Source of the DNA: Planctomycetota bacterium
GTDB taxonomy: Bacteria > Planctomycetota > Planctomycetia > Gemmatales > Gemmataceae
Direction: 5' to 3'
Assembly (NCBI GenBank): GCA_021413735.1
Contig: JAIOPV010000016.1
Location: forward strand, 1 to 64,000
Length of the DNA: 64,000 bases
Shown here: positions 26,056 through 41,562 of the stretch, one piece after another
How the letters are laid out: the number at the start of each line of letters is the position of its first letter
Numbering within the stretch: position 1 is the first letter of the stretch
Translations under genes and position numbers: made by a program
The notes under the pieces: model-generated
What the model saw: the letters and a program-made list of their open reading frames with translations, nothing else
Databases searched by the model: none
What the model was told of the DNA's origin: nothing

Positions 26056-26673
26056 ATGTGGGCAACGGCGACACCGTTCTCAACTGGCCGCAAAAAGCGC
26101 CTTGCAGTTGTGGCATCATGCCGAGCGATTCGGAGCAACCTGGAAGGTGTGTGTCGCTACTTCTCCGCCTTGGGACCAGACTACGCAATCGAAGTGGATG
26201 AACTATTGTCGCTCGCCGAGTCTCAAGCAGATGAAACTGCCCAAGATGTCAGCCAAGTCGAGGTTCAACGCACGTTGTGGAATGCTCTGGAGTTCTGCGC
26301 TTGTGGTGCGCAAGAGGTCGCGATGTTTCGTGGCTTTCGAGACGCACTGACGTTACTCGATTCCACTACCAACCCTCCGATCTTGTTTGCGACGAGTGTC
26401 ACAAACCGTTTCAAACTATGCGGTCCGTTCCGCGAAGTGTTTGGCAATCCCTTTTGGCCGGTGACATTCGATCCGGCTTGGCTCACGTCAACGGTCGTCT
26501 CGCTCGCCCAAAGCATGTATGAGTCCCGCGACTTTTCAGCGATGCCGATTCTGGCGGACGCACTCCAAGACGCGGGCTGCGACAACGACGACATCCTCGA
26601 CCACTGCCGCGACGAGAAGCAGGTTCACGTTCGCGGATGTTGGGTGGTTGATGCCATTCTCGGCAAGGAATAG
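26056..26673 (+). CDS. ADALQDAG-family protein with divergent N-terminus
   Basis: A 205-residue member of the planctomycete paralogous family. The family C-terminal half is intact: FREVFGNPFWPVTFDPAWLT, then VVSLAQSMYESRDFSAMPIL, then ADALQDAGCDNDDILDHC and VHVRGCWVVDAILGKE. The usual start (MTExEWLxxxDPTPMLEFL) is not present; only TGRKKRLAVVASCRAI matches the following RKLRLFA segment, so the 5' end was replaced or shifted. ATG 26056 is the nearest start in frame; the protein may be non-functional. Confidence 0.5.
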   Translation: MWATATPFSTGRKKRLAVVASCRAIRSNLEGVCRYFSALGPDYAIEVDELLSLAESQADETAQDVSQVEVQRTLWNALEFCACGAQEVAMFRGFRDALTLLDSTTNPPILFATSVTNRFKLCGPFREVFGNPFWPVTFDPAWLTSTVVSLAQSMYESRDFSAMPILADALQDAGCDNDDILDHCRDEKQVHVRGCWVVDAILGKE

Positions 26674-26832
26674 GGCCACAGAGGGTGTGAGATGGAACTC
26701 GTCGAGCACACTTTCGAGGAGTTGGGGAACCTTCAGTATCGCATGTTCACCTGCCCGCTCGCAGGGAACAGTACGCGACCGCCCTGGCGAAGTAACGCGA
26801 GGTGGTGAGCGGCCGCCCCATCGGGCGGCGCG

Positions 26833-27741
26833 TTAGTTCTGCTTGCGTCGCGGCCAGCGTCCATCTTGTCGCTGCTCCCGCAACCGATCATGGGGATGCC
26901 CACGGCCAAGCGCGGCGCGGCAGATGTCTCCCCAAACATCAGGATCCGGGTCCAGATCCGACACCGCTTCCGACTCCAGAAAGGTTGCGTAGTCCGCCAG
27001 AAACTCAGCCCACCCGGATGCCAGAACGCACTTGCGCTTTTCGTCCCGGCCGAAGATGATGACCTGTCCGACCGTGCCCTTTAAACCGGGTGCTAGGTCA
27101 ACTCCAATGTGGTTGGCGCCTCCGCCCTTTGTCAATGGGATCCAACCTGCGTTGGTGTAATCGAGGTTGACCGCCAACTCTGGGAACGACTCCGCGCCCT
27201 CACGCAACTCTTCGTTGTACCCCTCAACATCTCTCCACGTCTGCCAATTCGCAATGACGGACCCTGTCGAGAGCAGTTCCAATCCAAAGAGGAAGCCACT
27301 ATTCGCCCCGTTATGGATCGCGAGAGATTCGCGAACATCTGCGGGGAGAGGCTGCCCGATAGCTCGTTCGACTGTTTCGATCTCTTCCGCAGAGGCACCG
27401 GGATTAAGAACGCTGAGCAACGCCGGGTGATGTTGCTGGCACCACCCTTCCAGACGAGCCCAGGCATTTTGGGCTGATGCGGTCAGCCCGGCTTGCCCCA
27501 TGTGCCGACTGACAGCCGCACACCACCCCTCGGGAAACCCCTCACAGGTCTTCCGCAGTTTCGCGAAAACTTCATGCCACTGTGTGTCGCCCAAGGGAAG
27601 GGTGGCGAGTTCGCATTCGGTGCGAAGGAGCTCGCCTCCAGGCCGGTCATGTTCATCCAGCCAGTCCGCATACACCAAGCGAGCAGTGTTGTCGTTTGGA
27701 GCAGTCGCGAGCGCTGCCAAGAATGCGGCCTCGTCGCTCAT
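26833..27741 (-). CDS. TIGR02996-type protein with SUKH domain
   Basis: A 302-residue protein starting at ATG 27741 after GGAGGGCGT. Residues 1-50 are the TIGR02996-type module (DEAAFLAALATAPNDNTARL, VYADWLDEHDRPGGELLRTE). Residues ~110-250 are a SUKH/SMI1 domain (SAEEIETVERAIGQPLPADV, RESLAIHNGANSG, then YTNAGWIPLTKGGGANHIGVDLAP). The tail (RGHPHDRLREQRQDGRWPRRKQN) is basic. SUKH proteins often act as immunity proteins; the fusion with a TIGR02996 module is planctomycete-style. Confidence 0.8.
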   Translation of the reverse strand: MSDEAAFLAALATAPNDNTARLVYADWLDEHDRPGGELLRTECELATLPLGDTQWHEVFAKLRKTCEGFPEGWCAAVSRHMGQAGLTASAQNAWARLEGWCQQHHPALLSVLNPGASAEEIETVERAIGQPLPADVRESLAIHNGANSGFLFGLELLSTGSVIANWQTWRDVEGYNEELREGAESFPELAVNLDYTNAGWIPLTKGGGANHIGVDLAPGLKGTVGQVIIFGRDEKRKCVLASGWAEFLADYATFLESEAVSDLDPDPDVWGDICRAALGRGHPHDRLREQRQDGRWPRRKQN

Positions 27742-27899
27742 ACGCCCTCCGGCTTTTCGATTTCTAACTCGGTCCGTTGCCCGTGTGGCCGCGAGACAAC
27801 TGACCCTGAGAGTATGGCCCCACAACGGATAGCCTGCAATGCGGCTTGAGGGTTCGGCGTGGTAGACTGGCTGAGGATGCTGGGTGGTCGATCTGGTGC

Positions 27900-27954
27900 G
27901 ATCCGTTGACTGACAACTGCATTCGCAAGAGTGCAGGTATCAGTCGCAGGGTTC
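27900..27954 (+). repeat. 55-bp repeat, copy 1 (intron-associated)
   Basis: Differs at two positions from the sequence at 28396-28450. The copies lie just outside both ends of the truncated family gene between them. The shared GCAGGTATCAGTCGCAGGG core continues in copy 2 into the group II intron remnant, so this copy is probably a second 5' fragment of the same intron type. Confidence 0.8.
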
Positions 27955-28350
27955 AGGGAAGAACTCGTGACAACTCGATAACCGTGTGGGTGCGATTCCC
28001 ACCCAGGAGATGAACCTGTGAAAGCGTGTCCCACTCCAAAAGGCTTGACCAGCCCCGCGGAGCGGTGCCCCATTCACCTCTTGAACCGATCTCGCTGCGG
28101 CGTTTCCGGCCAGATGAGCCGCCGCCAGTTCGGATTCGGTGGCCAACCCGTCTGCAAATCGCTCTGCAACCTCAACCGCGTGTCGGGGCCGCTCATCAAG
28201 GAGCAGATACCACACGGCCCGACAGCAGGCGCAGGCAAACAGCCGCAACTTGCGGTCGCTCGCCTTGCCCCGAAGAAAACGCAGCATCTTCCAAGGCTCT
28301 GCGCATGCTCGCCATTCGGCTTCGCTCACCCGCCACTCGGCTTCAGTCAT
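27940..28350 (-). pseudogene. ADALQDAG-family gene, N-terminal part only
   Basis: The start MTEAEWRVSEAEWRACAEPW is followed by MLRFLRGKASDRKLRLFACA and CCRAVWYLLLDERPRHAVEV, the typical N-terminal half. After about residue 95 (VNGAPLRG) the frame runs into unrelated sequence that on the other strand belongs to the intron-like repeat at 27900. The C-terminal FGNPF and ADALQDAG modules are absent. It is the only family copy on the minus strand. Confidence 0.7.
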
Positions 28351-28395
28351 CGGTCGCCCTCGAAATGTCATTCATCCCGATGATACTCGCCACGG

Positions 28396-28790: not shown

Positions 28791-28859
28791 CCCTGCTTGG
28801 CAAATCGTGATCGCGGGTATGATCGGGTATCGCCGGCCGAAAGCGGGAGAGGGCAACCG

Positions 28860-29510
28860 ATGACTGAGCGTGAGTGGCTGGCGGCGACCGATCCGACGCC
28901 GATGCTGGAGTTCCTGCGAGGCAAGGCGAGCGACCGGAAGTTGCGACTATTTGGGTGTGCCTGTTGCTTCCGCATCTGGGAATACTTGAAGGACGAATGC
29001 CGTGCGGCGGTGTTGGTTGCCGAGCAGTACGGAGACGGAGCGGCCGACGACACCGAGCGATGGGCTGCCCGTGCTGCGGCTGAAATTGCGACGGACAACT
29101 CCGAATGTGAGGCGACGATCTCTTTGAATAACACGAGCGTGCCATTCGACACGGCTGATTATGTTTCCGTTACAACGGCTGGTCAGGGGTATGTTTTCGG
29201 TCAACCGGGAAGAAATGAGAACGACGAGAAGCAGTTTCTAACCGAACGAATCGTGCATACGGGCTTTCTACGGGACATCTTCGGCAACCCCTTCCACCCC
29301 GTTGCCCTCGACCCCTCCTGGCTCACGCCCACCGTCGTTCGACTTGCCGAACACATCTACCACAAGCGTGCTTTCGACCAGATGCCGATCTTGGCCGATG
29401 CCCTTCAGGATGCCGGGTGCGACAACGCCGACCTGCTGAACCACTGCCGACAACCCGGTGAACACGTTCGGGGATGCTGGGTGGTGGACATGCTGACCGG
29501 ACGCAAGTAA
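28860..29510 (+). CDS. ADALQDAG-family protein, complete
   Basis: A 216-residue complete member. Module 1 (residues 1-45): MTEREWLAATDPTPMLEFLR, GKASDRKLRLFGCACC. Module 2 (about 50-145): variable, rich in Ala/Glu/Asp. Module 3 (about 150-214): LRDIFGNPFHPVALDPSWLT, TVVRLAEHIYHKRAFDQMPI, LADALQDAGCDNADLLNHCR, HVRGCWVVDMLTGRK. The conserved ends and variable middle are the family's hallmark. The sequence gives no enzyme motif; the two CC residues and HCR...GC could bind metal. Function unknown. Confidence 0.72.
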   Translation: MTEREWLAATDPTPMLEFLRGKASDRKLRLFGCACCFRIWEYLKDECRAAVLVAEQYGDGAADDTERWAARAAAEIATDNSECEATISLNNTSVPFDTADYVSVTTAGQGYVFGQPGRNENDEKQFLTERIVHTGFLRDIFGNPFHPVALDPSWLTPTVVRLAEHIYHKRAFDQMPILADALQDAGCDNADLLNHCRQPGEHVRGCWVVDMLTGRK

Positions 29511-29601
29511 GCGGCGGTGGTCACGTCTGAATGCCTTGCATCAGTACAGAAGGATGGTGATCGGCTAAACTCGTGTTGGGCCGACCGAAGTGGAGTACAC
29601 C

Positions 29602-30276
29602 GTGAACGAACAGGAATGGTTGGCCTGTACCAACCCGTCACCGATGCTGGAGCATCTCCGGGCGAAGGCCAGCGACCGGAAACTGCGGGTATTTGCTGTC
29701 GTTTGCTGTCAGCGTATCCGACACCTGATGAGTGATGACAATAGCGAGCGGTACGAGGTAGCTGAACTCGTTGCGGATGGTACAGGATCGACAAGTGAGT
29801 TGCTGTCCGCTCGGAGCGTAGGCCAACGACTCACGAGCTACACAATCAACAACTTCCCGCTTGCCTGGACCGCTGAAAACTATGCTGATGCTGCTGCTGG
29901 CGATGCGGCTCATACCGACCCGTATTTCGCTGCCTGTTCCGTCTGCGAGTTGGCTCAGCTTGCCCAAAACCCTGTCGAAAACGAATACGGGAACGCGGAC
30001 GTGGGAGAAGAACATCACGCTCAGGCGGCACTCCTCCGTGACATCTTTGGCAACCCGTTTCGCCCTGTGTCCCTTGATCCTTCGTGGCTAACGACCACCG
30101 TCCTTGCCCTTGCTCAGCAGATGTACGAGTCGAGAGACTTCTCAACGATGCCGATTCTTGCCGATGCGTTACAGGACGCCGAATGCGACAACGCCGAGAT
30201 TCTCGATCATTGTCGAAGTGGCGGGTCACACGTTCGTGGTTGCTGGTTGATCGACCTGATGCTCGGGAAGTCGTAG
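29602..30276 (+). CDS. ADALQDAG-family protein, complete
   Basis: A 224-residue member starting at GTG 29602 (VNEQEWLACTNPSPMLEHLR) after GTGGAGTACACC. The conserved first module and the C-terminal LLRDIFGNPFRPVSLDPSWL, LADALQDAECDNAEILDHCR and HVRGCWLIDLMLGKS are all present. The middle region is unlike the other copies (SARSVGQRLTSYTINNF; AHTDPYFAACSVCELAQL). The sequence before it (29561-29580) matches the promoter-like part of the intergenic module described at 38386. Confidence 0.72.
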   Translation: MNEQEWLACTNPSPMLEHLRAKASDRKLRVFAVVCCQRIRHLMSDDNSERYEVAELVADGTGSTSELLSARSVGQRLTSYTINNFPLAWTAENYADAAAGDAAHTDPYFAACSVCELAQLAQNPVENEYGNADVGEEHHAQAALLRDIFGNPFRPVSLDPSWLTTTVLALAQQMYESRDFSTMPILADALQDAECDNAEILDHCRSGGSHVRGCWLIDLMLGKS

Positions 30277-30341: not shown

Positions 30342-31079
30342 CTACTCCTTCTGATATCGAAATGGCTGCCTCGGGTCGTCGGCCTGGGCAACCGGCGGTG
30401 CTGGAGGATCGGTCACGGCATCGTGGTCGTCCCCGAGTTTCGTGAACCAAGTCTTGATCTCCTCCCACTCCCCGTAGCCGGCCGCACCAAGTTCGTCGCG
30501 GGCCGCTTGCTCGGTGTCGAACCCGAGCAGGCCGAGGCCGGGACACCAAGCGTCCGCAGTCCCGTCAGTAAAAATGCGTAACCGGCCCTGCCGTCCCTTC
30601 GTCCAGCGTTTGCGTTTGCCATCCCAGGCCCGCCAGTCAACGAGCCACTCCTCGTGGTAGAGGGTCTTGCCAGCATAGAACTGCTCCCGCCCGACAGCCA
30701 AGCACCGCAGCCAGTCCTCGACAAGCCAGTACTTCTCATCTCGCAGCATCGGCCGGCCCACGAGCGTCGGGTAGCCTTCCTCGCCTTGGTCCCAACCGGC
30801 CCAGAAATCTTGGATAGCTTTGCGGTGTTGAGCCAGGTCCGCCCCGACGAGCGGCATCATCGACGTGGGAATCGTCCCATCAACCACAAAGGCGACCAGA
30901 TCCTCGAAGGGCGGTCGCGGGTGCGGTGCGAGGAATGACCTGAAGGCCCACGCGATGTCGAAGAAGGCGTCGAAGGCTCCATTCTGAAGGTACAGCGTTC
31001 GCCCCGGCCCCGGTGCGGGCCTCTCGACCTGCCGCCTCTGTTCTCCAGTCTGCGGGTCGATTTCGAACCAACACCACAT
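30342..31079 (-). CDS. Hypothetical protein
   Basis: A 245-residue soluble protein starting at ATG 31079 (MWCWFEIDPQTGEQRRQVER) after GGGAGGGTTACG. Trp- and charged-rich: FDAFFDIAWAFRSFL, YPTLVGRPMLRDEKYWLVED, LVDWRAWDGKRKRWTKGRQG, then TDGTADAWCPGLGLLGF. No family is recognised. It lies opposite to the surrounding paralogues and is likely an independent accessory gene. Confidence 0.55.
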   Translation of the reverse strand: MWCWFEIDPQTGEQRRQVERPAPGPGRTLYLQNGAFDAFFDIAWAFRSFLAPHPRPPFEDLVAFVVDGTIPTSMMPLVGADLAQHRKAIQDFWAGWDQGEEGYPTLVGRPMLRDEKYWLVEDWLRCLAVGREQFYAGKTLYHEEWLVDWRAWDGKRKRWTKGRQGRLRIFTDGTADAWCPGLGLLGFDTEQAARDELGAAGYGEWEEIKTWFTKLGDDHDAVTDPPAPPVAQADDPRQPFRYQKE

Positions 31080-31419
31080 CGTAACCCTCCCGCAACGGCA
31101 AGAGAGGCGGGACTGCCTTCCCGTGGCCCAACTCGGTGCTGATTGCGGGGATTCCGCCTTCATGTGCCACGGTAATCCAGACATAGGCCGTCGTTCGGCC
31201 CGCACCGCCGTAACTCCTGCCAGCGTAACCGAACCCAGGCGAGACTCAAGCGTAACCCATTCCGTGGTCGTTTACACTATCGTGTCACCCGACCCGGCCC
31301 GCCTGGCTCGGGCGTGCTCAAGGGTGGAGTCCGCCATCCCTTGGTTTCGCTGGCGAGGGGAACGGGGTATCATCGGGGCACAGCGGTTCCAAGGGCGAGC
31401 GACGACGGAAGTGGAATGA

Positions 31420-31480
31420 TTCAGGCTGCGAGACGCCGAAACACGAGCAGCAGTGGAAAAGGCGTGAGTACAGAAAACGC
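31420..31480 (+). repeat. Intergenic module copy, divergent
   Basis: AACACGAGCAGCAGTGGAAA then GGCGTGAGTAC matches the modules at 38386-38470 and 39171-39260. It precedes the small gene at 31503. Confidence 0.6.
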
Positions 31481-31502
31481 CCTCGACCACGGTATCTACG
31501 GC

Positions 31503-31778
31503 ATGAAGTGTCCGGCATCGTTGACCGGCGAGGCCCGCAAGTTCTTCAACCGACACCCGCCCTGGTGCGAATCTGACGGCACGCTCACCGACGCCACGCT
31601 CGACAGCTTCGTCTTGCTGTGCCGGACGTGGGCGATGGTTGTGAACCTCGACCCGGACGACGACACGCCACGAATCACGGTGCGGTTCACGAGCGACGGA
31701 AGGCTGATGGGCATCGAGGTAGACGACGCCCTGGCGGACTGGCTTTGGCCGTGTGAACAAGACGGAGCTTCGCAGTAA
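31503..31778 (+). CDS. Small hypothetical protein, possibly phage terminase-like N-terminus
   Basis: A 91-residue protein. CPASLTGEARKFFNRHPPWC, then DGTLTDATLDSFVLLCRTWA recalls the helical start of P27-type small terminase subunits. The C-terminal half (RITVRFTSDGRLMGIEVDDA, LADWLWPCEQDG) does not. It could be a chimera or an unrelated helical protein. A GTG further upstream (31464) lies inside a repeated intergenic module, so ATG 31503 is preferred. Confidence 0.45.
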   Translation: MKCPASLTGEARKFFNRHPPWCESDGTLTDATLDSFVLLCRTWAMVVNLDPDDDTPRITVRFTSDGRLMGIEVDDALADWLWPCEQDGASQ

Positions 31779-31886
31779 GGCCCGCGGGCGGGTAAGATCG
31801 GGAGTGGAAGTTGTTCTGCGGCCTACGGGATCGAGGGGTATAGGATTTTGCCCGAACTTGGAGTCTTGCATACGAGAGGGTACGCA

Positions 31887-32396
31887 ATGGACAATTATCC
31901 AATAATCCCCGACCTATTGGTGATTCAAACGTTGAAGGACGGAAGCGATTCGGAGCGGATGGCAGCAGCGAAAGAGTTGGGCAATAGAAACGCTGTGGAG
32001 GCGATACCGGCTTTGGTGGAGAGGCTAAGTGATTACAATGAGAGGGTAGCTGTCGCTTCGGCCGAGGCACTCGCAGTAATCGGTGGGCCAATTGCTTTTC
32101 AATCGGTGCTTGAAACGTACCGAACGGTTAAAATTGATATGCAACTCCCTGGGACACATTGGGTGGAAAACCGATTTTCCGGTATTGTTTCTGCCTTGGT
32201 CACATTCCTGACGAACCAGCAATTGATTGAGTGGCTTCAGAGCGGCGATGATGCGGACAAACGAGTCTCAGCAATCACTCTAGGAATGAGGCGAGCAGAG
32301 GAGGCGACAGTGCCACTTCGACAGGCCCTTTGCGATCCAAACCAAACAGTACGGTCCTGTGCCGATTGGGCATTAGCAGAATTGAATAAAGGTTGA
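31887..32396 (+). CDS. HEAT-repeat protein
   Basis: A 169-residue helical repeat protein starting at ATG 31887. Pattern: SERMAAAKELGNRNAVEAIP, ALVERLSDYNERVAVASAEA, LAVIGGPIAFQSVLETY and at the end TVPLRQALCDPNQTVRSCAD, typical HEAT-like (PBS-lyase-type) helical pairs. The base composition is distinctly AT-richer than the neighbours, suggesting a separate origin. HEAT proteins act as scaffolds; no partner is evident. Confidence 0.7.
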   Translation: MDNYPIIPDLLVIQTLKDGSDSERMAAAKELGNRNAVEAIPALVERLSDYNERVAVASAEALAVIGGPIAFQSVLETYRTVKIDMQLPGTHWVENRFSGIVSALVTFLTNQQLIEWLQSGDDADKRVSAITLGMRRAEEATVPLRQALCDPNQTVRSCADWALAELNKG

Positions 32397-32439: not shown

Positions 32440-32617
32440 TCTTTGCTCGTCGGCTTAAAGGATGTACCAGGACCGTGCTTTCGACTAAATGCCACTCCTT
32501 GCCGACGCCCTCAAAGACGCCGATTGCGACAACGCCGAGGTTCTCGACCACTGTCGAGGGCCAGGGCCGCATGTTCGAGGATGTTTCGTTGTGGACTTGC
32601 TGCTCGGCAAGGAGTGA
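32440..32617 (+). pseudogene. Orphan C-terminal module, ADALQDAG family
   Basis: Only the end of a family gene remains: MYQDRAFD, then a stop (TAA, where relatives have CAA/CAG for Gln), then MPLLADALKDADCDNAEVLD and HVRGCFVVDLLLGKE, stopping at TGA 32617. The next gene starts 4 bases later. The stop falls at a codon that is Gln in most copies. Confidence 0.75.
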
Positions 32618-32621: not shown

Positions 32622-33302
32622 ATGTCCGAAGCCGAATGGCTTGCGGCGACCGACCCGAAGCCGATGGTCGAATTCCTGGTCGAGACGGCAAGCAACCGGA
32701 AGTTGCTGCTTTTCTGTCTGGCCTGTTGTCGTAGAGTGGAACGACTTATCCTGAACTGGCCGTCTGCCTCATTGGTGGATGTGCTGGAACAACTTGCGGA
32801 CGGCCGGGCAAATCCGGCGTCTGTGCCCGAGCGTGTCCACTCCAAGTGGGAACCCGAACCGTACACGAATCAACTCGGGCCAACCCTTTTCGACTGTGCC
32901 GATGCAGTGTTGGAAGCGGCATTCCGCCCGTGTACAGACCGGTTAGAAGAAACGAGCGACGGGAGCATGCGAAAGGCAGGTGGGCCAACGGCCGTTGTGC
33001 ATTACTTCGAGGTTTTGGGATTCGAGCAATCTGCCACTGTCTCCCCACTGGTTCACGACCTCCACGACATCTTCGGCAACCCGTTCCAACCTATCGTTCT
33101 CGATCCCAACTGGCTCACGTCCACCGTCGTGGCACTCGCCAATGGCATCTATGACGAGAATGCGTTCGACCAAATGCCGATCTTGGCCGACGCCCTTCAG
33201 GATGCCGGGTGCGACAATGAGGATGTTCTTGGTCACTGCCGAAGTGAAGGACCGCACGTCAGGGGCTGTTGGGTGATTGACCAGTTACTTCGGAAGCACT
33301 GA
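32622..33302 (+). CDS. ADALQDAG-family protein, complete
   Basis: A 226-residue member: MSEAEWLAATDPKPMVEFLV, SNRKLLLFCLACCRRVERLI, a unique middle (ADGRANPASVPERVHSKWEP), then LHDIFGNPFQPIVLDPNWLT, VVALANGIYDENAFDQMPIL, ADALQDAGCDNEDVLGHCRS and HVRGCWVIDQLLRKH. Its Shine-Dalgarno (AAGGAG) is formed by the last codons of the preceding orphan module. Role unknown. Confidence 0.72.
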   Translation: MSEAEWLAATDPKPMVEFLVETASNRKLLLFCLACCRRVERLILNWPSASLVDVLEQLADGRANPASVPERVHSKWEPEPYTNQLGPTLFDCADAVLEAAFRPCTDRLEETSDGSMRKAGGPTAVVHYFEVLGFEQSATVSPLVHDLHDIFGNPFQPIVLDPNWLTSTVVALANGIYDENAFDQMPILADALQDAGCDNEDVLGHCRSEGPHVRGCWVIDQLLRKH

Positions 33303-33343: not shown

Positions 33344-34627
33344 ATGGAGTCACCGCAGCAACTCCGTCTCGGGGAAATCGAGCAGCGAGTCTGTGACCTG
33401 GCTGTGGAACACATGGCTATCCCCAGGCGACAAATCTCTCCGTCGAGCCGGTTGATCGAGGACCTTCACTGCGACAGCCTCGACCTCATGGAGTTCGTGA
33501 TGGCCCTGGAACAAGCGTTCGGCGTCACTTTCCCTGACAATTCCTCGTCGGAGCCGATTTGCAAATCCATCTTCACTCGCCAGCCATTCCGCCTCTCCGA
33601 TCTCGCAGAAATCGTTTATGTGCAGCAGGGCACGGGAACTCCACAACGGAACCGCCGGAAGGGCAAAACCCACAAAACCATCATCCCGATGGTGCCGTTC
33701 AGCCAACTTGATGGCCGGTGGCGACCAAGCGGCGAACAACCATTCGAGCCGATGAACGCCAATGGACCGGTTCGGCAATTCCGGCGGCGTTCGGACGGGA
33801 TGAGGTGCGTGTTGATCCCAGAAGCAGCCGTGGAGATTGGCTCCGACGTGCCCGATGGCCTCCCGGATGAACGACCGCCGCACATCGTCGAGGTGGATTC
33901 GTTTGTAATTGACGCCGAGCCGGTATCCACGACGGCGTACTGCCGATTCCTCAACTCCATCGCAACCGTGAGTTCGGAAACACTCTCGGATTGGTTCGCC
34001 CTCGACCCGAAAGATGACCGCAACCAGCATGCGGTCATCACGAAGTCTGGAAATGAGTGGCGACCAACCCTTGGGGCCGAACGGTGGCCGATGGTTCTCG
34101 TCTCGTGGTTCGGGGCAAATGCGTACTCGTTGTGGGCCAACGGGCGAGACTGGAACGACTACCGTGATGAAGCGGGGGTGAACAGTTTCCTGCCAACGGA
34201 GGCTCAGTGGGAATACGCTGCCCGAGGAACTGACCGTCGGCAGTTTCCTTGGGGAAATGATCCACCATCACCAGACCGAATGCGATTCGGCCGTCATGAT
34301 CCAGGCGACACTTACACGGCCAATTCACTTCCGCTGGCTGGAGTCAACGAAGCCCTTGGGTTATCGCCATTCGGGCTTCATCACATGGCCGGGAACGTGT
34401 GGCAATGGTGTCGGGATTGGTATTCTGAGGACTTCTACCAACAGCCCGCTGCTCATCGTCCGAACCCCCTGAACCGTTTGGTGAGTGGCGTTCGGAGCGA
34501 GCGGGGTGGGAGTTGGGTCGGACCAGCCGAGTTGTGTCGCAGTTCGTACCGCCGAGGACGCTCGCCGTGTGCCCGTGGGCGTTGCCTCGGGTTCCGCTGC
34601 GTCAGCCCACCTGAGAATGCTCGCTGA
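33344..34627 (+). CDS. Acyl-carrier-like domain fused to FGE-like domain
   Basis: A 427-residue fusion. Residues ~5-95 form a phosphopantetheine-carrier fold: EIEQRVCDLAVEHMAIPRRQ, SRLIEDLHCDSLDLMEFVMA (the DSLDLME serine is the attachment site), EQAFGVTFPDN. After a linker (RRKGKTHKTIIPMVPFSQLD), residues ~145-425 are an FGE/SUMF1-like domain: MRCVLIPEAAVEIGSD, NSFLPTEAQWEYAARGTDRR, HHMAGNVWQWCRDWYS, RSERGGSWVG, CLGFRCV. Fusing a carrier domain to an FGE-like fold is unusual; covalent substrate presentation is a hypothesis. Confidence 0.8.
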   Translation: MESPQQLRLGEIEQRVCDLAVEHMAIPRRQISPSSRLIEDLHCDSLDLMEFVMALEQAFGVTFPDNSSSEPICKSIFTRQPFRLSDLAEIVYVQQGTGTPQRNRRKGKTHKTIIPMVPFSQLDGRWRPSGEQPFEPMNANGPVRQFRRRSDGMRCVLIPEAAVEIGSDVPDGLPDERPPHIVEVDSFVIDAEPVSTTAYCRFLNSIATVSSETLSDWFALDPKDDRNQHAVITKSGNEWRPTLGAERWPMVLVSWFGANAYSLWANGRDWNDYRDEAGVNSFLPTEAQWEYAARGTDRRQFPWGNDPPSPDRMRFGRHDPGDTYTANSLPLAGVNEALGLSPFGLHHMAGNVWQWCRDWYSEDFYQQPAAHRPNPLNRLVSGVRSERGGSWVGPAELCRSSYRRGRSPCARGRCLGFRCVSPPENAR

Positions 34628-35001: not shown

Positions 35002-36150
35002 ATGTCCAGAGTTCAGGTTCGTCTGGTGGCACTCGTCGTGGCGTGTCTCTTCGTCGTTACGGCCAACGGGTGCGGTCGGGGAACTCCAACCACTGGAGCA
35101 TCGCTTGGAAAGGTACAAATCGGGCCGGAAAGTGAAACCGCTGAAGTCTTCATTAAGCGAGGCAGTGCTTGGGGACACAAGGGTAACTGGGACAAGGCGA
35201 TCAAAGAGTTTGACGAGGCCATTCGGCTCGATCCGAAATCTGCCGTGGCTTTCGAAAACCGGGGCATTTCACTTGCCCATCTGGGGCAGTTGGATGCAGC
35301 GATCAAGGATTATGACGAAGCCATTCGCCTCAACCCAATCTTCGCATCGGCCTTCACAAATCGTGGCACCGCTTGGAATCTGAAGAAAGACAACGACAAA
35401 GCGATCAAGGATTTCGATCAGGCCATCCGACTCGATCCGAACCTTGCCTTTGCTGTTGGTGCCCGAGGCCGCTTGCATGAGGAGAATGGTGAATGGGACG
35501 AGGCGATCAGAGATTACAACGAAGCCATCCGACTCGACCCGAAAGACGCTTACGCCTTCGCAAACCGAGGCAGTACTTGGCTGCATAAGAACGAGGATGA
35601 CAAAGCGATCAAGGATTTCGATCAGGCTATTCGGCTTGATCCGAAAGATGCCACCACCTTGAACAACCGGGGATTTGTGCGTGCACGGAAAAAGGAGTAC
35701 GACGAAGCGATTAAGGATTACGACGAGGCCATCCGACTGGTCCCCAAGTTGGCCTCAGCGTTCGAAAACAGGGGTTCCGCCTGGGGTCGGAAAGGAGATT
35801 TCGCCAAAGAGTTGAACGACTACGACGAGGCCCTCCGGCTCAACCCCAATCTCGTTACAGCGTTGCTGAACCGGGCTTGGCTTCGAGCAACCTGTCGTGA
35901 TTCTCGGTACAGAGATGGGCCGAAAGCTGTCGAGGATGCAAAGCGAGCCTGCGAACTGACAGGATGGAAAGAAGCATCCCATCTGGCCCACCTCGCTGTC
36001 GCTCATGCCGAGAACGGGGAGTTCGAGGAAGCCGTGAAGTGGCAGGCGAAAGCATTGGAAGATGCCCAGTACCGACAGCGGGCGGGAGACTTTGCCCAGA
36101 TGTTGCTGAAGCTCTATGAAGCGAAAAAACCATTCCGGGGGGATAAGTGA
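35002..36150 (+). CDS. TPR-repeat lipoprotein
   Basis: A 382-residue protein after GGAGGTCCGAT. Signal VRLVALVVACLFVVTANGC with lipobox ANGC. Then about eight TPR units of 34 residues: GSAWGHKGNWDKAIKEFDEA, IRLDPKSAVAFENRG, DKAIKDFDQAIRLDPN, to LRLNPNLVTALLNRAWLRA; the last third is more divergent (ASHLAHLAVAHAENGEFEEA). A periplasmic membrane-anchored scaffold is expected. Confidence 0.88.
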   Translation: MSRVQVRLVALVVACLFVVTANGCGRGTPTTGASLGKVQIGPESETAEVFIKRGSAWGHKGNWDKAIKEFDEAIRLDPKSAVAFENRGISLAHLGQLDAAIKDYDEAIRLNPIFASAFTNRGTAWNLKKDNDKAIKDFDQAIRLDPNLAFAVGARGRLHEENGEWDEAIRDYNEAIRLDPKDAYAFANRGSTWLHKNEDDKAIKDFDQAIRLDPKDATTLNNRGFVRARKKEYDEAIKDYDEAIRLVPKLASAFENRGSAWGRKGDFAKELNDYDEALRLNPNLVTALLNRAWLRATCRDSRYRDGPKAVEDAKRACELTGWKEASHLAHLAVAHAENGEFEEAVKWQAKALEDAQYRQRAGDFAQMLLKLYEAKKPFRGDK

Positions 36151-36379: not shown

Positions 36380-36970
36380 ATGACCGAACTGGACTGGCTG
36401 AAAGGTAGGAACCCTGTCCTGTTGTTTCGACACCTCCAGGGCCGCATTACTGAGCGTAAGTTGCGATTATTTGCTGCTGCCGCCTTGAACACGATGAAAG
36501 AGCGAGATCAGGATTCTATCGCCCGCTATGAAGTCGCAGAACGCTTCGCAGACGGGTTGTTGACGGTGAGCGAGCTTCGTAAGGCGTGGCCGGCCATGCG
36601 GACCGACAACCCTGCCACAGCACCCGAACTCGCATACGATTGGGCCGAAGTGGTCGTGATGGCAAAAGACCGAGGGTACTACGGCGGCTCCTTCCCCATC
36701 CTTTCGCAACCACTGGTCAGCCATCTCCTCCGAGAGGTTGTAGGTAACCCCTTTCAACCTGTGACGCTCTTACCGTCATGGCGTACTGACACTGCGTTGG
36801 CTCTGGGCCGTCAGAGGTACGAGTCTCGTGACTTCTCTGCGATGCCGATCCTCGCCGATGCCCTTCAAGATGCCGGCTGCGACAACACCGATATTCTCGA
36901 TCATTGCCGCAGTGATCGACCGCACGTTCGAGGATGCTGGGTAATCGATTTACTCCTCGGGAAGGAGTAA
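36380..36970 (+). CDS. ADALQDAG-family protein
   Basis: A 196-residue member after CAGAGGCGGAC: MTELDWLKGRNPVLLFRHLQ, TERKLRLFAAAALNTMKERD, a variable middle (WPAMRTDNPATAPELAYDWA), then LREVVGNPFQPVTLLPSWRT, LGRQRYESRDFSAMPILADA, LQDAGCDNTDILDHCRSD and HVRGCWVIDLLLGKE. Three units (36380, 36974, 37633) follow head-to-tail with gaps of 2-3 bases, an operon-like trio. A promoter-like GGCGTGGTAAACTGACC lies at 36343. Confidence 0.72.
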   Translation: MTELDWLKGRNPVLLFRHLQGRITERKLRLFAAAALNTMKERDQDSIARYEVAERFADGLLTVSELRKAWPAMRTDNPATAPELAYDWAEVVVMAKDRGYYGGSFPILSQPLVSHLLREVVGNPFQPVTLLPSWRTDTALALGRQRYESRDFSAMPILADALQDAGCDNTDILDHCRSDRPHVRGCWVIDLLLGKE

Positions 36971-36973: not shown

Positions 36974-37630
36974 GTGACCGAACAAGAGTGGCTTACGGCG
37001 ACCGACCCGACGCCGATGCTTCGTTTCATAAAAGGGAAGACAAGCAACCGGAAATTGCGGTTATTTGCAGTGGCTTGCTGCCGCCGGATCGAGCGGTTCA
37101 TCTACCCGCCCTGGCATGGGGTGTTGGAAGCCGCCGAGCAAGTCGCCGATGGGGTAATCCGACACGATGAACTCCTGGCCATTCGTGTCGGTGCAGACCC
37201 GGTTCATGATGGGACGATGGCAGTCGAGGCCGCCGCCATGACCGACCATTTCCCGATTAACAATGCTGATGATGCGGCGGGGTACGCTGCCCAAGCTGTT
37301 GCCAGAGAGGTAGTGCCGGGATATCCAGAGAACCTCGCTGCCTGGCAGGCGGCACGAGGATGTGAGGAAGGGGCTCAGTCCACTGTACTCCGTGACATCC
37401 TCGGCAACCCGTTCCACCCCGTCATCGTCGTTCCCATGTGGCTTACCTCAACCGTCGTGGTGCTTGCCCGCCAGATGTACGAATCTCGTGACTTCTCTGC
37501 GATGCCGATTCTCGCTGACGCACTTCAGGACGCCGGTTGCGACAACGACGACGTACTGAACCACTGTCGAAATCCGGGATCGCATGTTCGGGGATGTTGG
37601 GTAATCGATTTACTCCTCGGGAAGGAATAG
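36974..37630 (+). CDS. ADALQDAG-family protein, second of tandem trio
   Basis: A 218-residue member starting at GTG 36974 (VTEQEWLTATDPTPMLRFIK), four bases after the upstream stop begins. The AAGGAG that serves as ribosome site is part of the upstream GKE* codons. It has NRKLRLFAVACCRRIERFIY, a variable middle (EAAAMTDHFPINNADDAAGY), VLRDILGNPFHPVIVVPMWL and ADALQDAGCDNDDVLNHCRN, HVRGCWVIDLLLGKE. Confidence 0.72.
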   Translation: MTEQEWLTATDPTPMLRFIKGKTSNRKLRLFAVACCRRIERFIYPPWHGVLEAAEQVADGVIRHDELLAIRVGADPVHDGTMAVEAAAMTDHFPINNADDAAGYAAQAVAREVVPGYPENLAAWQAARGCEEGAQSTVLRDILGNPFHPVIVVPMWLTSTVVVLARQMYESRDFSAMPILADALQDAGCDNDDVLNHCRNPGSHVRGCWVIDLLLGKE

Positions 37631-37632
37631 CC

Positions 37633-38376
37633 ATGACTGAACCAGAATGGCTTGCAGCGATCAACCCGACGCCGATGCTTGAGTTTCTGAAGGGGACAAC
37701 AAGCGAGAGGAAGTTGCGTCTCTTTGCCTGTGCGTGCTGCCGCCGCATTTGGTCTGCACTGAAGAGAGGTGGTAGTCGAAAGGCGGTTGAGGTCTGTGAG
37801 GTGTACGCTGACAACCTGACCACAAGCGAGAAGTTGCAATCGGCTCACGAAAATGCCCATGATGCGTTTGCCCGTGTTCAGTGGGCGGCAGAGAGCGATG
37901 AGGAAACAACTCCGGCGAGAGCAGCTATCTACTTGGGCGAAGGAGCAGAGTTTCATCCTGGACTAGTTGCGGACGAAGCTGCGGCGACATTCGGAGTGAA
38001 GGCCAGAGAACGGGATTTCAAACGTCGCAAAAGGGCTGCCGACGCTAAGGGGCAGGAAGCACCGATCTGGGACCAGTACGACGCTATCTATCGTGCGGCA
38101 CAGGCAGAAGAAGCACGAGTACAATCTAACCTGTTACGCTGCGTCATCGGCAATCCGTTTCGCCCCATCCTCGTTAATCCTTCGTGGCTCACGTCCACCG
38201 TTGTCTCACTCGCCCGTGGCATCTACGACGAGAAGGCCTTCGACCGGATGCCCATACTAGCCGACGCCCTCCAGGACGCCGGTTGCGACAACACCGCCAT
38301 CCTCGATCACTGTCGGGCACCGGGACCGCATGTCCGGGGTTGTTGCGTCCTCGACCTGATCCTCGGCAATTCGTAA
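37633..38376 (+). CDS. ADALQDAG-family protein, third of tandem trio
   Basis: A 247-residue, longer member: MTEPEWLAAINPTPMLEFLK, SERKLRLFACACCRRIWSAL, an inserted middle of ~95 residues with basic helix (ATFGVKARERDFKRRKRAAD, EAPIWDQYDAIYRAAQAEEA), then LLRCVIGNPFRPILVNPSWL, RGIYDEKAFDRMPILADALQ, DAGCDNTAILDHCRAPGPHV, RGCCVLDLILGNS. The final GNS differs from the usual GKE, so no downstream copy is immediately coupled. Confidence 0.72.
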   Translation: MTEPEWLAAINPTPMLEFLKGTTSERKLRLFACACCRRIWSALKRGGSRKAVEVCEVYADNLTTSEKLQSAHENAHDAFARVQWAAESDEETTPARAAIYLGEGAEFHPGLVADEAAATFGVKARERDFKRRKRAADAKGQEAPIWDQYDAIYRAAQAEEARVQSNLLRCVIGNPFRPILVNPSWLTSTVVSLARGIYDEKAFDRMPILADALQDAGCDNTAILDHCRAPGPHVRGCCVLDLILGNS

Positions 38377-38385: not shown

Positions 38386-38470
38386 TGCCACGCCCCGGAA
38401 CACGAGCAGGAGCAGCCGTCGCAAATGGAATAGGCGTGAGTACGGAAAGGATCACGACCGGTTGACTCAG
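38386..38470 (+). repeat. Intergenic module copy (CGCCCCGGAACACGAGCAGG type)
   Basis: CCACGCCCCGGAACACGAGC, AGGAGCAGCCGTCGCAAATG, then GAATAGGCGTGAGTACGG and AAAGGATCACGACC. A close copy lies at 39171-39260, a divergent copy at 31420-31480, and fragments follow the gene ends near 30281 and 39976. It precedes the SUKH gene at 38528. Confidence 0.75.
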
Positions 38471-38527
38471 GTTAGGCGTTTCAGCGGTGTCAGCACAAGC
38501 ATGAAGTCGGGGCCAAAAGGTGTTGCA

Positions 38528-39118
38528 ATGCACGACAGGTGGGATACGTTCTTCAGTTCGATTACTTGCTTGCCAGCTGACGGTGTCTCGCATGCTCCCG
38601 GTCAGAAAGATTTTCAGCGGTTTGAAGCAAAGTACGGCATGGTTCTGCCGCAAAGCTACAGATCGTTTGTCAGCCGATCCGGTCCAGGAGTGTTGGGGGA
38701 TTTGTTCCGCATCGCTGCCCCAGGCTACGGCGGCATGGGCCACTGGTTCGATCTTGACAGATTGAATAGAGAGAGCATTCGGACCGCCCCACCCGAGTAC
38801 ATCGCTGAGGTTCACTGCCGTGGCTTGGATAGCGACGAGTCTGCGGACATTGTGAAGCAGTTGCAACGGATGGTGTTCTTTTGCACGCTTGAAGCCGAGG
38901 AGTTTATTGGTTGGGACACCCTTGACGAGAGCGATGCCGGACCGAACGAATACGGGATATGCATTGTCCCTCGTATGGGGCCTCCAGTTTACTGCTGTTG
39001 TTCCTTTTATTCCTTTATCTACGACATCTGCATGGGCAGCGGGTTCAAAGAGTTTTTTCACGACGACGAATCGTCCGAGGCAGCATTCAAGAGAAGTCAC
39101 ACCTTCCGTTTGATCTGA
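38528..39118 (+). CDS. SUKH (SMI1/KNR4) family protein
   Basis: A 196-residue protein starting at ATG 38528 (MHDRWDTFFSSITCLPADGV). SUKH pattern: DFQRFEAKYGMVLPQSYRSF then VSRSGPGVLGDLFRIAAPGY, DIVKQLQRMVFFCTLEAEEF, IGWDTLDES and YDICMGSGFKEFFHDDES. A possible immunity function is suggested by the family; no toxin is adjacent. Confidence 0.78.
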   Translation: MHDRWDTFFSSITCLPADGVSHAPGQKDFQRFEAKYGMVLPQSYRSFVSRSGPGVLGDLFRIAAPGYGGMGHWFDLDRLNRESIRTAPPEYIAEVHCRGLDSDESADIVKQLQRMVFFCTLEAEEFIGWDTLDESDAGPNEYGICIVPRMGPPVYCCCSFYSFIYDICMGSGFKEFFHDDESSEAAFKRSHTFRLI

Positions 39119-39284: not shown

Positions 39285-39976
39285 GTGACCGAACAAGAGT
39301 GGTTGATGTGTACCGACCCAACCCTGATGCTGGAGTTTCTTCGAGGTCGTCTAGGTGACCGTCAGAGTCGGCTCCTGATGTTCCAATTCGCCCACGAACT
39401 ACTGGCCTGGCATCACGATGCCCCCACTCGGGAGGTCGTCACGATTCTGGATCGTTATGCCGAGGGGGGCTTTGCGGGTGGGGAATTACACGACGCACTC
39501 CGGCCGTTTGCAGCATCGTGTCAGGTGCTGGCCGACGAAGGGTACCCCTGGCCCGTTCAGGATGCTCATCCTCTTCATGCCCACGTCGAGTCTGCCGCCC
39601 TGTGGCTCATCCGGCGGTTCCTCCCGCCCGAGATGACCGTCTCCAGCCTCTCCGACCTGAGTGGGCTGCGGCTGTCCCCAAAAGACGCTGACACGCTCGA
39701 CTACTTCCGGTGGCTTGTCTGCACAAGACCCTTCGGGACGTAGTGGGGATCGCCACGTTCCGCCACGTCCCCTTCGAGGCAGCGTGGCGAACGTCCACGG
39801 TCGCCGCCACTGCCGAAGGCATCTACGCTGACCGTGCCTTTGACCGGCTGCCGATCATGGCAGACGCCCTTCAGGATGCGGGATGCGACAACGCCGACAT
39901 CCTGAACCACAGTCGGAGCGGGGGGCTGCACGTCCGTGGCTGCTGGGTGATCGACCTGATCCTCGGGAAGTCTTAA
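39285..39976 (+). pseudogene. ADALQDAG-family gene with a frameshift
   Basis: The 5' part (39285-39743) encodes MTEQEWLMCTDPTLMLEFLR and an atypical middle (LHDALRPFAASCQVLADEGY). The 3' part (39710-39976) encodes LHKTLRDVVGIATFRHVPFE, AWRTSTVAATAEGIYADRAF, DRLPIMADALQDAGCDNADI and HVRGCWVIDLILGKS. The two parts need a change of frame within 39710-39743, so either it is a broken gene or two overlapping proteins; the former is more likely. Confidence 0.7.
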
Positions 39977-40151
39977 CTTTCGGCGGCCACCCCCCGAAAC
40001 ACCACGAGAAAGAGCGTGCTAACAGGGGCTATCGCCCTTGACGGTCGAACAGATGTAATAGCCACCCTATCGGAACTTTCTCACCTGCACCGGGTTCGGC
40101 GTGTGGTAGTATCGGAAGAATTTCGAGAGTTCACGCAATGCGAGGGCAACA

Positions 40152-40979
40152 ATGTCACGGTTGATGCTCTGCGGGCTGATGTCGTGGCTGATCCTGGGTT
40201 CGCCAGCAGTGGGACATGGTGACGACGCCGAAGAGAAGGCAGTCGCTAACGTCGAGAAGTTCGGAGTGAGTATTATCCGGAAAGAGAAACTGCCGGGTAA
40301 ACCCGTAATTTCGTTGAACTTCAACACGAACAAGGTGACTAACGGAGGATTAACTGATGAGCGGTTGAAAGAACTGGCCCCGTTGAAGAACCTTGAGTAC
40401 CTGCTTCTTGGAGGGAATCCAGTCACAGACGGAGGACTGAAGGAACTCGCCCCCCTCAAGAAGCTGAGGGTACTCAATTTAGCACGAACGAAGGTGACAG
40501 ACGGAGGGCTGAAGGAACTCGCCACACTCGACAATCTGGAGGAACTCCTGCTGGATGACACCAAGGTAACGGATGTGGGATTGAAGGAACTTGCCCCTCT
40601 GAAAAAGCTCACCTCGCTCCACCTCAGCGGCCCACAGATGACAGACCGAGCCCTTGCAGTCTTGCACGAAATCAATTTGCTTCATGCTTTCACGGGTGCA
40701 AAGACTGTGACCAGTCAGCGTCCTTCCAAAATCGAAGATGTAATTATCGTTTCCCTCAGTGGAACTCAGGTCACCGATGCAGGTTTGAAGGAACTCGTAG
40801 CCTTCAAGAATTTCACCGCTCTTTACTTGAGCGAGACTAACGTGACGGATGCGGGTTTAAAGAACCTTGCCTTGCTCAAAAAGCTCACCTACCTCGAACT
40901 GAAACGCACTAAGGCAACCAACACCGGCGTGAAGGAACTCCAAATGGCGTTGCCAAAGTGCGAAATCGTAACGGAATAA
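40152..40979 (+). CDS. Secreted LRR protein (short paralogue)
   Basis: A 275-residue protein with signal MSRLMLCGLMSWLILGSPAV and about seven LRRs (TDGGLKELAPLKKLRVLNLA; VTDAGLKELVAFKNFTALYL). It starts like the larger LRR gene at 850 (DDAEEKAVANVEKFG; KLPGKPVISLNFN). An insertion of ~30 residues (ALAVLHEINLLHAFTGAKTV) interrupts the repeat. Probably exported; partner unknown. Confidence 0.82.
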   Translation: MSRLMLCGLMSWLILGSPAVGHGDDAEEKAVANVEKFGVSIIRKEKLPGKPVISLNFNTNKVTNGGLTDERLKELAPLKNLEYLLLGGNPVTDGGLKELAPLKKLRVLNLARTKVTDGGLKELATLDNLEELLLDDTKVTDVGLKELAPLKKLTSLHLSGPQMTDRALAVLHEINLLHAFTGAKTVTSQRPSKIEDVIIVSLSGTQVTDAGLKELVAFKNFTALYLSETNVTDAGLKNLALLKKLTYLELKRTKATNTGVKELQMALPKCEIVTE

Positions 40980-41136
40980 GGCGAATTCGGACACATTCCC
41001 ATCTCAGAGGTTCCCCCTACTCCACTACACGTCTTGGTTTCGCCTGCTCGGGTTGCTCGCTTTGTTCGTGCCGGTCGCCACGTCGCCTCGAACGTCTTGA
41101 TCTTCTTGGTGAGTTTTTCCCCGTACTGCACGCACT

Positions 41137-41343
41137 CCACCTGCTCCCAACCGCTCTCGTGTCCTGCCGGTTTCGCTTGCACGGCACATGTACGAGTCAC
41201 GGGACTTCTCCACGATGCCGATTCTCGCAGATGCCTTTCAGGACGCCGGGTGTGATGAACCGGCTGTCCTCGAGCACTGTCGTTGTGGAGGACCGCATGT
41301 GCGGGGCTGTTTCGTTGTCGATCTGCTGTTGGGGAAGGAATGA
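41137..41343 (+). pseudogene. Orphan C-terminal module, ADALQDAG family
   Basis: The open frame ends PVSLARHMYESRDFSTMPIL, then ADAFQDAGCDEPAVLEHCRC and HVRGCFVVDLLLGKE, stopping at TGA 41343. No start or N-terminal module; the preceding sequence (41034-41136) is unrelated. Like the orphan at 32440 it sits immediately before a new family start (41347). Confidence 0.75.
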
Positions 41344-41346
41344 GCC

Positions 41347-41562
41347 ATGACAAAGGAGGAATGGCTTGCTGAGACTTTTCCTAATTCTCTGCTCGCCATG
41401 CTCCCGCTCTCTGCAAGTGACCGCAAGTGCAGATTGTTGGCATGTGCGTGTATACGGAAAGAATGCCCGGTACCCAGAGAGTTGGGCTGCGAATTGGCAG
41501 TGAATTCTGGAGAAAAGATGGCTGACGGGCAACTAGCCCTTAAACAAGCGAATCGTCTCTGA
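41347..41562 (+). pseudogene. ADALQDAG-family gene, N-terminal part only
   Basis: MTKEEWLAETFPNSLLAMLP, LSASDRKCRLLACACIRKEC, then a stop at 41562. The C-terminal module is missing. It follows the orphan C-terminal module by 3 bases and lies ~150 bases before the IS1380 element; the break is not at the IS end, so the truncation may be separate. A minus-strand open frame (41540-41659) with a strong AGGAGGTGAGC site overlaps the end. Confidence 0.6.

Follow-up and report, generated by a model that had tools for sequence, protein, structure and literature searches.

A recombining array of paralogues with a constant C-terminal module in Gemmata-like planctomycetes: a putative polyimmunity-type locus

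The closest described counterparts of the locus reported here are the T7SS arrays of EsaG (S. aureus) and TipC (Streptococcus), in which tandem, unequal immunity paralogues recombine through conserved blocks. In the part of the source considered here, TipC is described with conserved 5' and 3' blocks around variable regions, and esaG copies are reported also from strains without the toxin EsaD (PMC9484751). Polyimmunity loci offer another comparison; these are tandem paralogues with SUKH, HEAT, and LRR types, all of which are listed as immunity types in the portion of PMC3482391 on which we draw. A possible structural counterpart is SsdAI, the immunity protein found in 7JTU together with SsdA, a T6SS DNA-deaminase toxin; in the excerpt of PMC7901873 used here, SsdAI is all-helical, and its interface marks out the active site of the toxin. 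The present array shares the tandem arrangement of unequal paralogues with conserved blocks around a variable region, although it is built from a protein family other than EsaG and TipC, and its core family is not among the types named in the same portion of PMC3482391, where Gemmata is not mentioned.

The window, that is, the whole 64,000-nucleotide stretch of DNA analyzed, contains 12 complete or broken family copies at 25.9-41.6 kb in a six-frame search with the family profile. The search agrees with an earlier note on this DNA, which had counted at least 12 copies in 26-41.6 kb plus an outlier near 19.4 kb, the outlier being a relic. The description of the locus as an array of paralogues holds for these copies and pieces, but the array is not pure, as at least seven other genes are interspersed. 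The features are as follows:

19410..19653, plus strand: outlying relic (family profile), C-terminal module in two reading frames
23497..24432, minus strand: ADP-ribosylglycohydrolase (PF03747), array flank
25805..26652, plus strand: exchange tract, 93.3% identical to L106 7761-8607 (another genome of the genus)
26026..26673, plus strand: family copy (family profile), open, divergent N part
26833..27825, minus strand: TIGR02996 and SUKH-1 (PF09346, 1.2e-15) protein
27940..28371, minus strand: family copy, N-terminal part only (profile match 28075-28326)
28839..29510, plus strand: family copy, intact (profile match from 28860)
29590..30276, plus strand: family copy, intact (profile match 29605-30273)
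30342-31205: ORF with only a sub-threshold Pfam match
31314-31775: ORF scanned with NCBIfam only
31848..32396, plus strand: HEAT-repeat protein
32489..32617, plus strand: C-terminal-module relic (family profile)
32622..33302, plus strand: family copy, intact (family profile)
33344..34627, plus strand: PP-binding and FGE-sulfatase-domain protein
35002..36150, plus strand: TPR protein
36380..36970, plus strand: family copy, intact, 3 bp ahead of the next copy
36974..37630, plus strand: family copy, intact; first structure model
37633..38376, plus strand: family copy, intact, long middle; second structure model
38462..39118, plus strand: SUKH-1 protein (PF09346, 5.1e-6, above cut-off)
39285..39976, plus strand: family copy, two overlapping frames (39285-39743 and 39710-39976; profile matches 39285-39740 and 39725-39973)
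40152..40979, plus strand: LRR protein
41170..41343, plus strand: C-terminal-module relic (family profile)
41347..41562, plus strand: N-terminal relic (profile match 41347-41550), 3 bp past the preceding C-terminal relic
41740..43317, minus strand: IS1380-family transposase, array end

Two SUKH-1 genes, a HEAT gene, and an LRR gene thus lie among the copies. As in the polyimmunity loci of PMC3482391, in the part considered, no toxin model matches between the paralogues among the window ORFs scanned, a negative bounded by the coverage of the libraries. The window presents the mixed immunity-type families and the lack of an intervening toxin model that mark such loci, around a core family whose immunity role we infer below. 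SUKH-1 lies within 5 kb of family matches at four of 11 places, compared with 7.3% of the genome (P 0.006), although these places are few and partly non-independent, with two of the four in this window; with one fusion included, the count is 5 of 12 (P 0.001). The control family PSCyt2, for which 97 of 101 listed places were taken, gave 9 of 97 versus 7.1 expected. The ADP-ribosylglycohydrolase at the array flank has Tri1 as its best NCBIfam match (247.7 bits, below the Tri1 cut-off of 490), and the TIGR02996 and SUKH-1 protein also matches the PADLOC candidate PDC-M40A (3.4e-31). A promoter and terminator scan gave numbers at the level of shuffled sequence.

Beyond the window, the source genome contains 151 matched stretches of the family, amounting to about a hundred genes or relics, whole or broken. 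This copy number far exceeds that of EsaG and TipC arrays, which hold roughly a dozen at a single locus (PMC9484751, in the part considered), a difference that counts against the polyimmunity-type reading proposed below. All 19 genomes of the genus, this one included, contain members, as do 2 of 6 genomes of other genera in the same taxonomic family; the proteins are absent from all 16 genomes examined farther out in the order and class, a distribution that fits their earlier designation as planctomycete. A tblastn search of plasmids and phages with one member gave no match, and a search of the open-access literature found no publication on the family among the results listed, which is not proof that none exists.

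The C-terminal ~75 residues of these proteins are constant and the N-terminal ~45 moderately so, whereas the middle is nearly unique to each copy. For six window copies aligned end to end by the profile (15 pairs, with the profile-split copy at 36380 excluded), identity is 61-72% in the C region and 18-34% in the middle; in the N region, it is 46-72% in the 10 pairs without copy 26026 and 21-31% in the five pairs with it. Measured separately in this way, the three regions bear out the claim that the ends are kept and the middle differs, and the middles do not align well, with only 2 of the 15 middle alignments standing above shuffled sequence at z > 3. Among 280 copies, shared middles were found in at least 13 of 39,060 pairs, a lower bound because pairs were prefiltered by shared 11-mers (identical sequences were counted once, and L001-L007, L159-L170, L187, and L189-L198 were excluded as duplicate entries or identical transposon copies). 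Fourfold sites in the C region agree at only ~39% between contigs of the source genome and are strongly diverged between most copies. Conservation is therefore at the protein level, and conservation of the ends by DNA identity alone can be rejected.

Structure models were predicted for two adjacent copies, 36974..37630 (pLDDT 95.3, pTM 0.91) and 37633..38376 (pLDDT 95.4, pTM 0.91). Both are all-helical, with the same order of 12 helices despite unalike middles; on the strength of these two models, we reject a different fold of the middle in each copy. In VIA-align, SsdAI (7jtu_B, chain B of 7JTU) ranks first for the first model (Z 11.8, rmsd 3.3, 133 aligned, model residues 1-143) and for the second (Z 11.8, rmsd 3.7, 146 aligned, model residues 1-172), in a range, Z under about 13, where helical proteins may share only a common arrangement. 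The sequences have little in common (10-14% identity). The runner-up for the first model is DUF416 (2q9r; Z 9.8 over residues 4-146, but at 15% identity), followed by a value of 4.8; for the second model, the next value is 6.8, and DUF416 is missing from the list. DUF416 has no known function. Foldseek gave 7jtu_B an E of 1.8 (prob 0.69) with the first model and of 3.6 (prob 0.28, rank 10) with the second, neither of them significant.

A link to immunity proteins also appears in profile comparisons. Copy 27940..28371 scores 25.4 bits against Imm5_like (PF21805), for which the Pfam gathering cut-off is 25, and this relic is the only match in the source genome at E≤0.001; at E≤0.1, seven of 85 members match (best 4.2e-4), and 78 do not. 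Compared profile to profile, the N and middle parts of the family align with PF21805 over the N-terminal helices (model 25-64) at P 5.8e-5, with a score of 32.1 and an HHalign probability of 66%, the template being ten planctomycete matches, six of them above cut-off, rather than Pfam's own alignment. Twenty column-shuffled controls made from nine of the ten template sequences scored at most 14.6, versus 31.7 for the real comparison with the same nine. On this profile evidence, we treat the N part as distantly related to Imm5-like proteins rather than as a member of Imm5_like. The PF21805 and SsdAI matches both stop short of the C module. The resemblance of the predicted fold to that of a toxin-binding immunity protein makes it plausible that the middle may serve as the specificity determinant.

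The statement in the earlier note that no function had been described can be amended to this extent: the nearest lead is an Imm5-like/SsdAI fold, from the fold models and the PF21805 profile match. A known enzyme was rejected, as no Pfam or NCBIfam model scored above cut-off in the six intact window copies. A search of PDB sequences with the family profile reached a best E of 0.1, with ribonuclease A at the top. In BFVD, no fold match reached E≤0.001; the best was an uncharacterized phage protein (prob 0.99, E 0.16), and an Imm-5-like phage protein ranked second (prob 0.96, E 1.4). The DYW deaminase model (PF14432) matched in none of the 19 genus genomes, and the controls had no match either. 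Separately, single members among the 85 match Exonuc_V_gamma (2.3e-5) and antitoxin VbhA (3.4e-4), one each.

Eight close pairs, defined by middles at least 85% identical, bear on exchange between copies. In five of them, identity of 91-99% falls by 0.1 or more within the C module, where dS is 0.42-0.86 as against 0.03-0.26 before it (C/middle values of 0.44/0.04, 0.42/0.08, 0.86/0.07, 0.56/0.26, and 0.47/0.20). In the window tract shared with L106, identity falls inside the C module and disappears past the stop; the N and middle parts of copy 26026..26673 lie within this tract, and the four C tails nearest to its own belong to paralogues of the same genome. In two cases, the tract starts in one gene's C module and ends in the C module of the gene that follows. 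In a clustering test on 268 of the 280 copies (12 without a genome label excluded, and pairs with middles ≥65% alike masked), the nearest relative lay in the same genome for 34.7% and 36.6% in two parts of C, versus 13% when permuted (maximum of 500 permutations, 22%), and for 11.6% in N and 10.1% in the middle, neither of which is raised. By this measure, only the C module clusters by genome. For the last part of C, comparisons within genomes give the same mean identity as those between genomes (0.707 vs 0.709), so the homogenization is patchy.

These identity steps, dS values, and tract ends show at the sequence level that homologous recombination with junctions in the C module alters the repertoire. 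From the same comparisons, we conclude that a cassette of N part and middle, in some cases together with the upstream spacer and the preceding gene's tail, has moved between arrays and species and been joined to the resident C module, and that C modules have been patchily homogenized within genomes. The proposal of a modular family with exchange is thus upheld as to exchange but not as to its unit, as N part and middle move together; none of the compared tracts showed an exchange of the middle by itself with both ends staying in place. Junctions in conserved blocks, here in five of eight close pairs and at tract ends, are common to the EsaG and TipC arrays in the part of PMC9484751 considered; unlike in those arrays, the N block is transferred along with the variable region, and the conserved block is a separate protein module carried by other proteins as well.

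Purifying selection could alternatively keep the ends while the middles drift or evolve fast, with no exchange. The strong divergence of fourfold sites between most copies would suit such a course, as would the three close pairs that lack a 0.1 drop at the C module; yet, within the same gene, the dS values of middle and C module lie 2.2- to 11.8-fold apart in six of the eight pairs (about 60-70 synonymous sites each), the identity steps are sharp, and clustering by genome is module-specific, all of which leaves this already disfavored account very improbable. Just as improbable, in our view, is binning or assembly error, by which swapped contigs of related bins would mimic tracts between species. 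The source assembly, in 293 contigs, and L106, which is a MAG contig, are indeed drafts, and several copies of the family sit at the ends of contigs. One clear case, however, that of L072 and L341, links a scaffold of Gemmata sp. IIL30 to a 10.1 Mb genome assembled as a single contig; the flanking regions are syntenic on either side, and identity is lowest in the C module. In the other tracts, the sequences flanking the shared stretch are unrelated. That the copies are mobile-element debris, transposon passengers without host function whose ends are conserved only through recombination, seems to us improbable in spite of the family copy that rides within a 2322-bp IS66 element, bounded by inverted repeats and present 12 times in identical form, in one related genome (G016), the IS1380 transposase at the array end, and the many relics. 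In all eight close pairs, dN/dS is 0.13-0.62 for the middles and 0.08-0.23 for the C modules, which indicates purifying selection on the middles in these recent pairs; the array C239 consists almost wholly of full-length, tightly packed copies; and conservation acts on the protein.

The C module itself invites a different reading, in which it would be a common output or adaptor plug on varied binding domains, Imm5-like and SUKH-like ones among them, and the family a modular recognition repertoire for sensing or innate defense. The module has 126 matches genome-wide and, in the same genome, also caps proteins with unrelated front parts, among them a WD40 propeller protein (where an in-frame stop cuts the module), a sub-threshold SUKH_6-like protein, and others without Pfam matches. 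C189, H197, C198, H204, and C208 are kept in 84-85 of 85 members and would, in such a repertoire, form a candidate metal site. An alignment of the module with the TIGR02996 profile spans eight columns (AD.L...G) at a probability of 3.9%, which does not establish a relation. The family has no linked effector or enzyme domain, however, PADLOC models match none of the three family proteins scanned, and the front domain is similar to an inhibitor of a toxin; we hold this reading to be unlikely. Its broader form, in which more than 100 swappable helical domains on a universal C module (output and exchange site in one, with IS66 carriers) would make an analogue of a recombining receptor repertoire, is similarly doubtful.

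On balance, we consider it somewhat probable that Gemmata-like planctomycetes have here a locus of the polyimmunity type, a recombining immunity-gene array larger than those of EsaG and TipC and with a dedicated exchange module. We infer an immunity function for the family. An all-helical domain (residues ~1-140), which would have an SsdAI-like fold, is fused to a constant ~75-residue C module; the helical skeleton and N-terminal motif would be kept while the middle diverged beyond recognition, and the repertoire, as shown above, changes through homologous recombination with its junctions in the C module. Each middle would bind and block its own incoming toxin, or class of toxins, and these toxins would come mostly from competitors, because no cognate toxin was found beside the copies. 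The C module would provide a shared, non-specific function in stability, partner binding, or location. If this is right, these bacteria would hold an unusually large immunity-like repertoire, renewed by cassette exchange at a module that is used elsewhere too. It would offer a functional lead for about 100 genes and relics whose tested copies receive no library name, and what Gemmata defends against would become directly testable.

The array lies on a contig (C268) of a 9.80-Mb assembly in 293 contigs, from a genus that also contains Gemmata sp. IIL30. A profile built from six intact copies recovered 12 whole or partial family copies from 25.9 to 41.6 kb, with a further relic at 19.4 kb, in agreement with the earlier note's count of at least twelve complete or broken copies and an outlier. 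Its description of conserved ends around a middle that differs in almost every copy also holds. Among six end-to-end window copies, pairwise identity is 61-72% in the C part, 18-34% in the middle and 46-72% in the N part (21-31% against the divergent copy at 26026-26673), and the middles do not align well, standing clearly above shuffled sequence (z > 3) in only 2 of 15 pairs. Across 85 members drawn from many genomes, blocks of ten columns have a mean entropy of 1.4-2.4 bits at residues 1-40, 2.6-3.9 bits at residues 61-140 and 0.2-1.5 bits at residues 141-218, this last conservation being biased upward because 79 members were retrieved through C-module peptide patterns. Cys189, His197, Cys198, His204 and Cys208, each conserved in 84-85 of the 85, form a candidate metal site; H197, C198, H204 and C208 are absent from those retrieval patterns.

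Features in and beside the array
23497-24432 (-), 1.6 kb before the first copy: ADP-ribosylglycohydrolase; top NCBIfam match Tri1, 247.7 bits against a cut-off of 490
26833-27825 (-): TIGR02996+SUKH-1 protein, matching PADLOC defence candidate PDC-M40A (3.4e-31)
33344-34627: FGE-sulfatase domain joined to a phosphopantetheine-binding domain in one protein
36380-36970, 36974-37630 and 37633-38376: three genes with spacers of 3 and 2 bp, probably one operon
Non-family genes amid the copies: the TIGR02996+SUKH-1 protein, a second SUKH-1 protein, and HEAT, LRR, TPR and FGE-sulfatase-domain proteins
Array end: IS1380 transposase

Of the 11 SUKH-1 places in the window's own genome, four have a family match no more than 5 kb away, compared with 7.3% of the genome (P 0.006); this count omits one SUKH-like protein that itself carries the C module, and two of the four places are in this window. 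The control family PSCyt2 is near family matches at 9 of 97 places, with 7.1 expected. Searched alone with a hand-written consensus, the C module (the C-terminal ~75 residues) has 126 matches in this genome, and it also caps proteins with other front parts.

Loci where the C module follows another front part
L209: WD40 propeller; C module interrupted by an in-frame stop
L215: SUKH_6-like front (sub-threshold match)
L211, L212, L214: fronts without Pfam matches
L218: front without a Pfam match; part of the family middle aligns too

A relation between the C module and TIGR02996 was looked for, and none was demonstrable.

The C module is also where most of the closest pairs of copies part. Among 280 unique full copies, at least 13 of 39,060 pairs have middles at least 70% identical, and eight of these reach at least 85%. 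In five of the eight (the window 26026 copy with L106; L143 with L147, both in the own genome; L035 with L140; two copies of L116; L072 with L341), identity runs at 91-99% along the N part and middle and then falls by at least 0.1 inside the C module; two pairs between L136 and L346, and L056 with L340, show no such drop. The modular exchange proposed earlier is borne out in part: N part and middle move together, and among these pairs there is no case of a middle exchanged alone. Synonymous divergence in the five pairs is 0.03-0.26 in the N part and middle vs 0.42-0.86 in the C module; it is even between middle and C in both L136-L346 pairs and uneven as well in L056-L340 (middle 0.19, N 0.43, C 0.63). 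For random pairs, identity over the last ~150 nt has a median of 0.70 (95%, 0.79); four of the five tails fall to 0.67-0.80, near that level, and L072-L341 stays at 0.87. Past the stop codon, similarity is gone in four of the five pairs and stands at about 0.88 in L072-L341, so that the replacement there looks limited to the C module, as in gene conversion. The shared tract of L035-L140 and of L143-L147 starts in the C module of the preceding gene, so that an entire cassette was transferred between two C modules; that of the L116 pair starts at the start codon. In the five pairs with middles 70-85% identical, the last part of C is below the middle in three and above it in two.

The modules also differ in history. 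For the two parts of C, 34.7% and 36.6% of 268 copies have their nearest relative in the same genome, against a permuted expectation of 13% (maximum 22% over 500 permutations, pairs with alike middles masked); the values for N (11.6%) and middle (10.1%) are not raised. The N part closest to that of the 26026 copy is in another genome (0.97), and its own genome holds the four closest C tails (0.83-0.85). For each of the five remaining window copies in this table, the single closest C tail is in another genome, so own-genome clustering of C is not universal. Mean identity in the last part of C is equal within and between genomes (0.707, 0.709). Agreement at 4-fold sites of C is only slightly higher within an own-genome contig (0.425) than between own-genome contigs (0.394) or with other species (0.386).

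The own genome holds at least 151 family matches, counted after scoring 150 of its 217 candidates and including copies that appear as two pieces; further arrays are on contigs C239, C210 and C217. The family is present in 21 of 41 genomes surveyed: all 19 of the genus, the own genome among them, and 2 of the 6 from other genera within Gemmataceae, with none found in the 16 beyond Gemmataceae. As at most about 70 candidates were scored per genome, the copy numbers in that survey are minimum values. Across 84,980 species, a scan gave 410 relatives; every one of the 79 retained loci is planctomycete by title, including Gemmata, Limnoglobus roseus and a MAG labelled Singulisphaera. A single member, searched against 72,556 plasmids and 50,697 phages, gave zero matches. 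Seven own-genome contigs (C28, C72, C112, C137, C149, C178, C225) carry family matches at their ends or within about 140 bp, and C28 and C225 both start with matches of equal length and score; these assembly breaks may have been caused by the C module. On C284, at 5.3-13.7 kb, six TIGR02996 matches alternate with copies of the family, perhaps forming another type of array.

Another genome (G016) carries 12 identical 2322-bp elements bounded by terminal inverted repeats, in each of which a single family gene accompanies an IS66 transposase (NF033517, 247 bits). Exact 8-bp target repeats flank the called ends at 8 of the 12 sites and appear at 2 more after one extra base; of the remaining two, one has 7 of 8 bp and one has none. 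At locus L188 (3330-9274; G016:C1, about 5.273-5.279 Mb), EF-Tu (tuf)-like pieces, recognised by eye, are interrupted first by an IS66 element carrying a family gene and then, at a later point, by a tandem of three family genes.

Two window members with unalike middles (36974-37630 and 37633-38376; 218 and 247 residues) gave confident structure models that share 12 helices, those of the middle differing in length. VIA-align places SsdAI, the immunity protein of the T6SS DNA-deaminase toxin SsdA (7JTU chain B), top for both (Z 11.8 each; values below about 13 may, as the tool cautions, reflect a common helical arrangement); DUF416 follows for the first model (Z 9.8), and every other entry in both lists is at most 6.8. 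Foldseek scores were weak for both. Independently of the fold, the N part is distantly related to Imm5_like (Pfam PF21805): a comparison of profiles gives P 5.8e-5, against which 20 shuffled controls scored far lower, and one family copy exceeds the Pfam cut-off. Imm5 is described in PMC3482391 as mostly alpha with a conserved R and D; our guess is that these correspond to R26 (84 of 85 members) and D59 (73 of 85).

Judged by codon substitution, the family is under protein-level constraint (dN/dS of the middles 0.13-0.62 in 8 of 8 close pairs). It resembles SsdAI in fold and keeps the company of known immunity families, and we infer that it would neutralise toxins, the middle giving the specificity. 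Among described systems, the closest are polyimmunity loci (PMC3482391) and the EsaG and TipC immunity arrays, which recombine through conserved blocks, those of TipC lying at the 5' and 3' ends (PMC9484751). As far as the searches go, the new points are the family, its scale, an exchange site formed by a protein module that unrelated proteins share, and the family's carriage as a passenger of IS66 elements. We class the array as one that probably works as the EsaG/TipC arrays and polyimmunity loci do.
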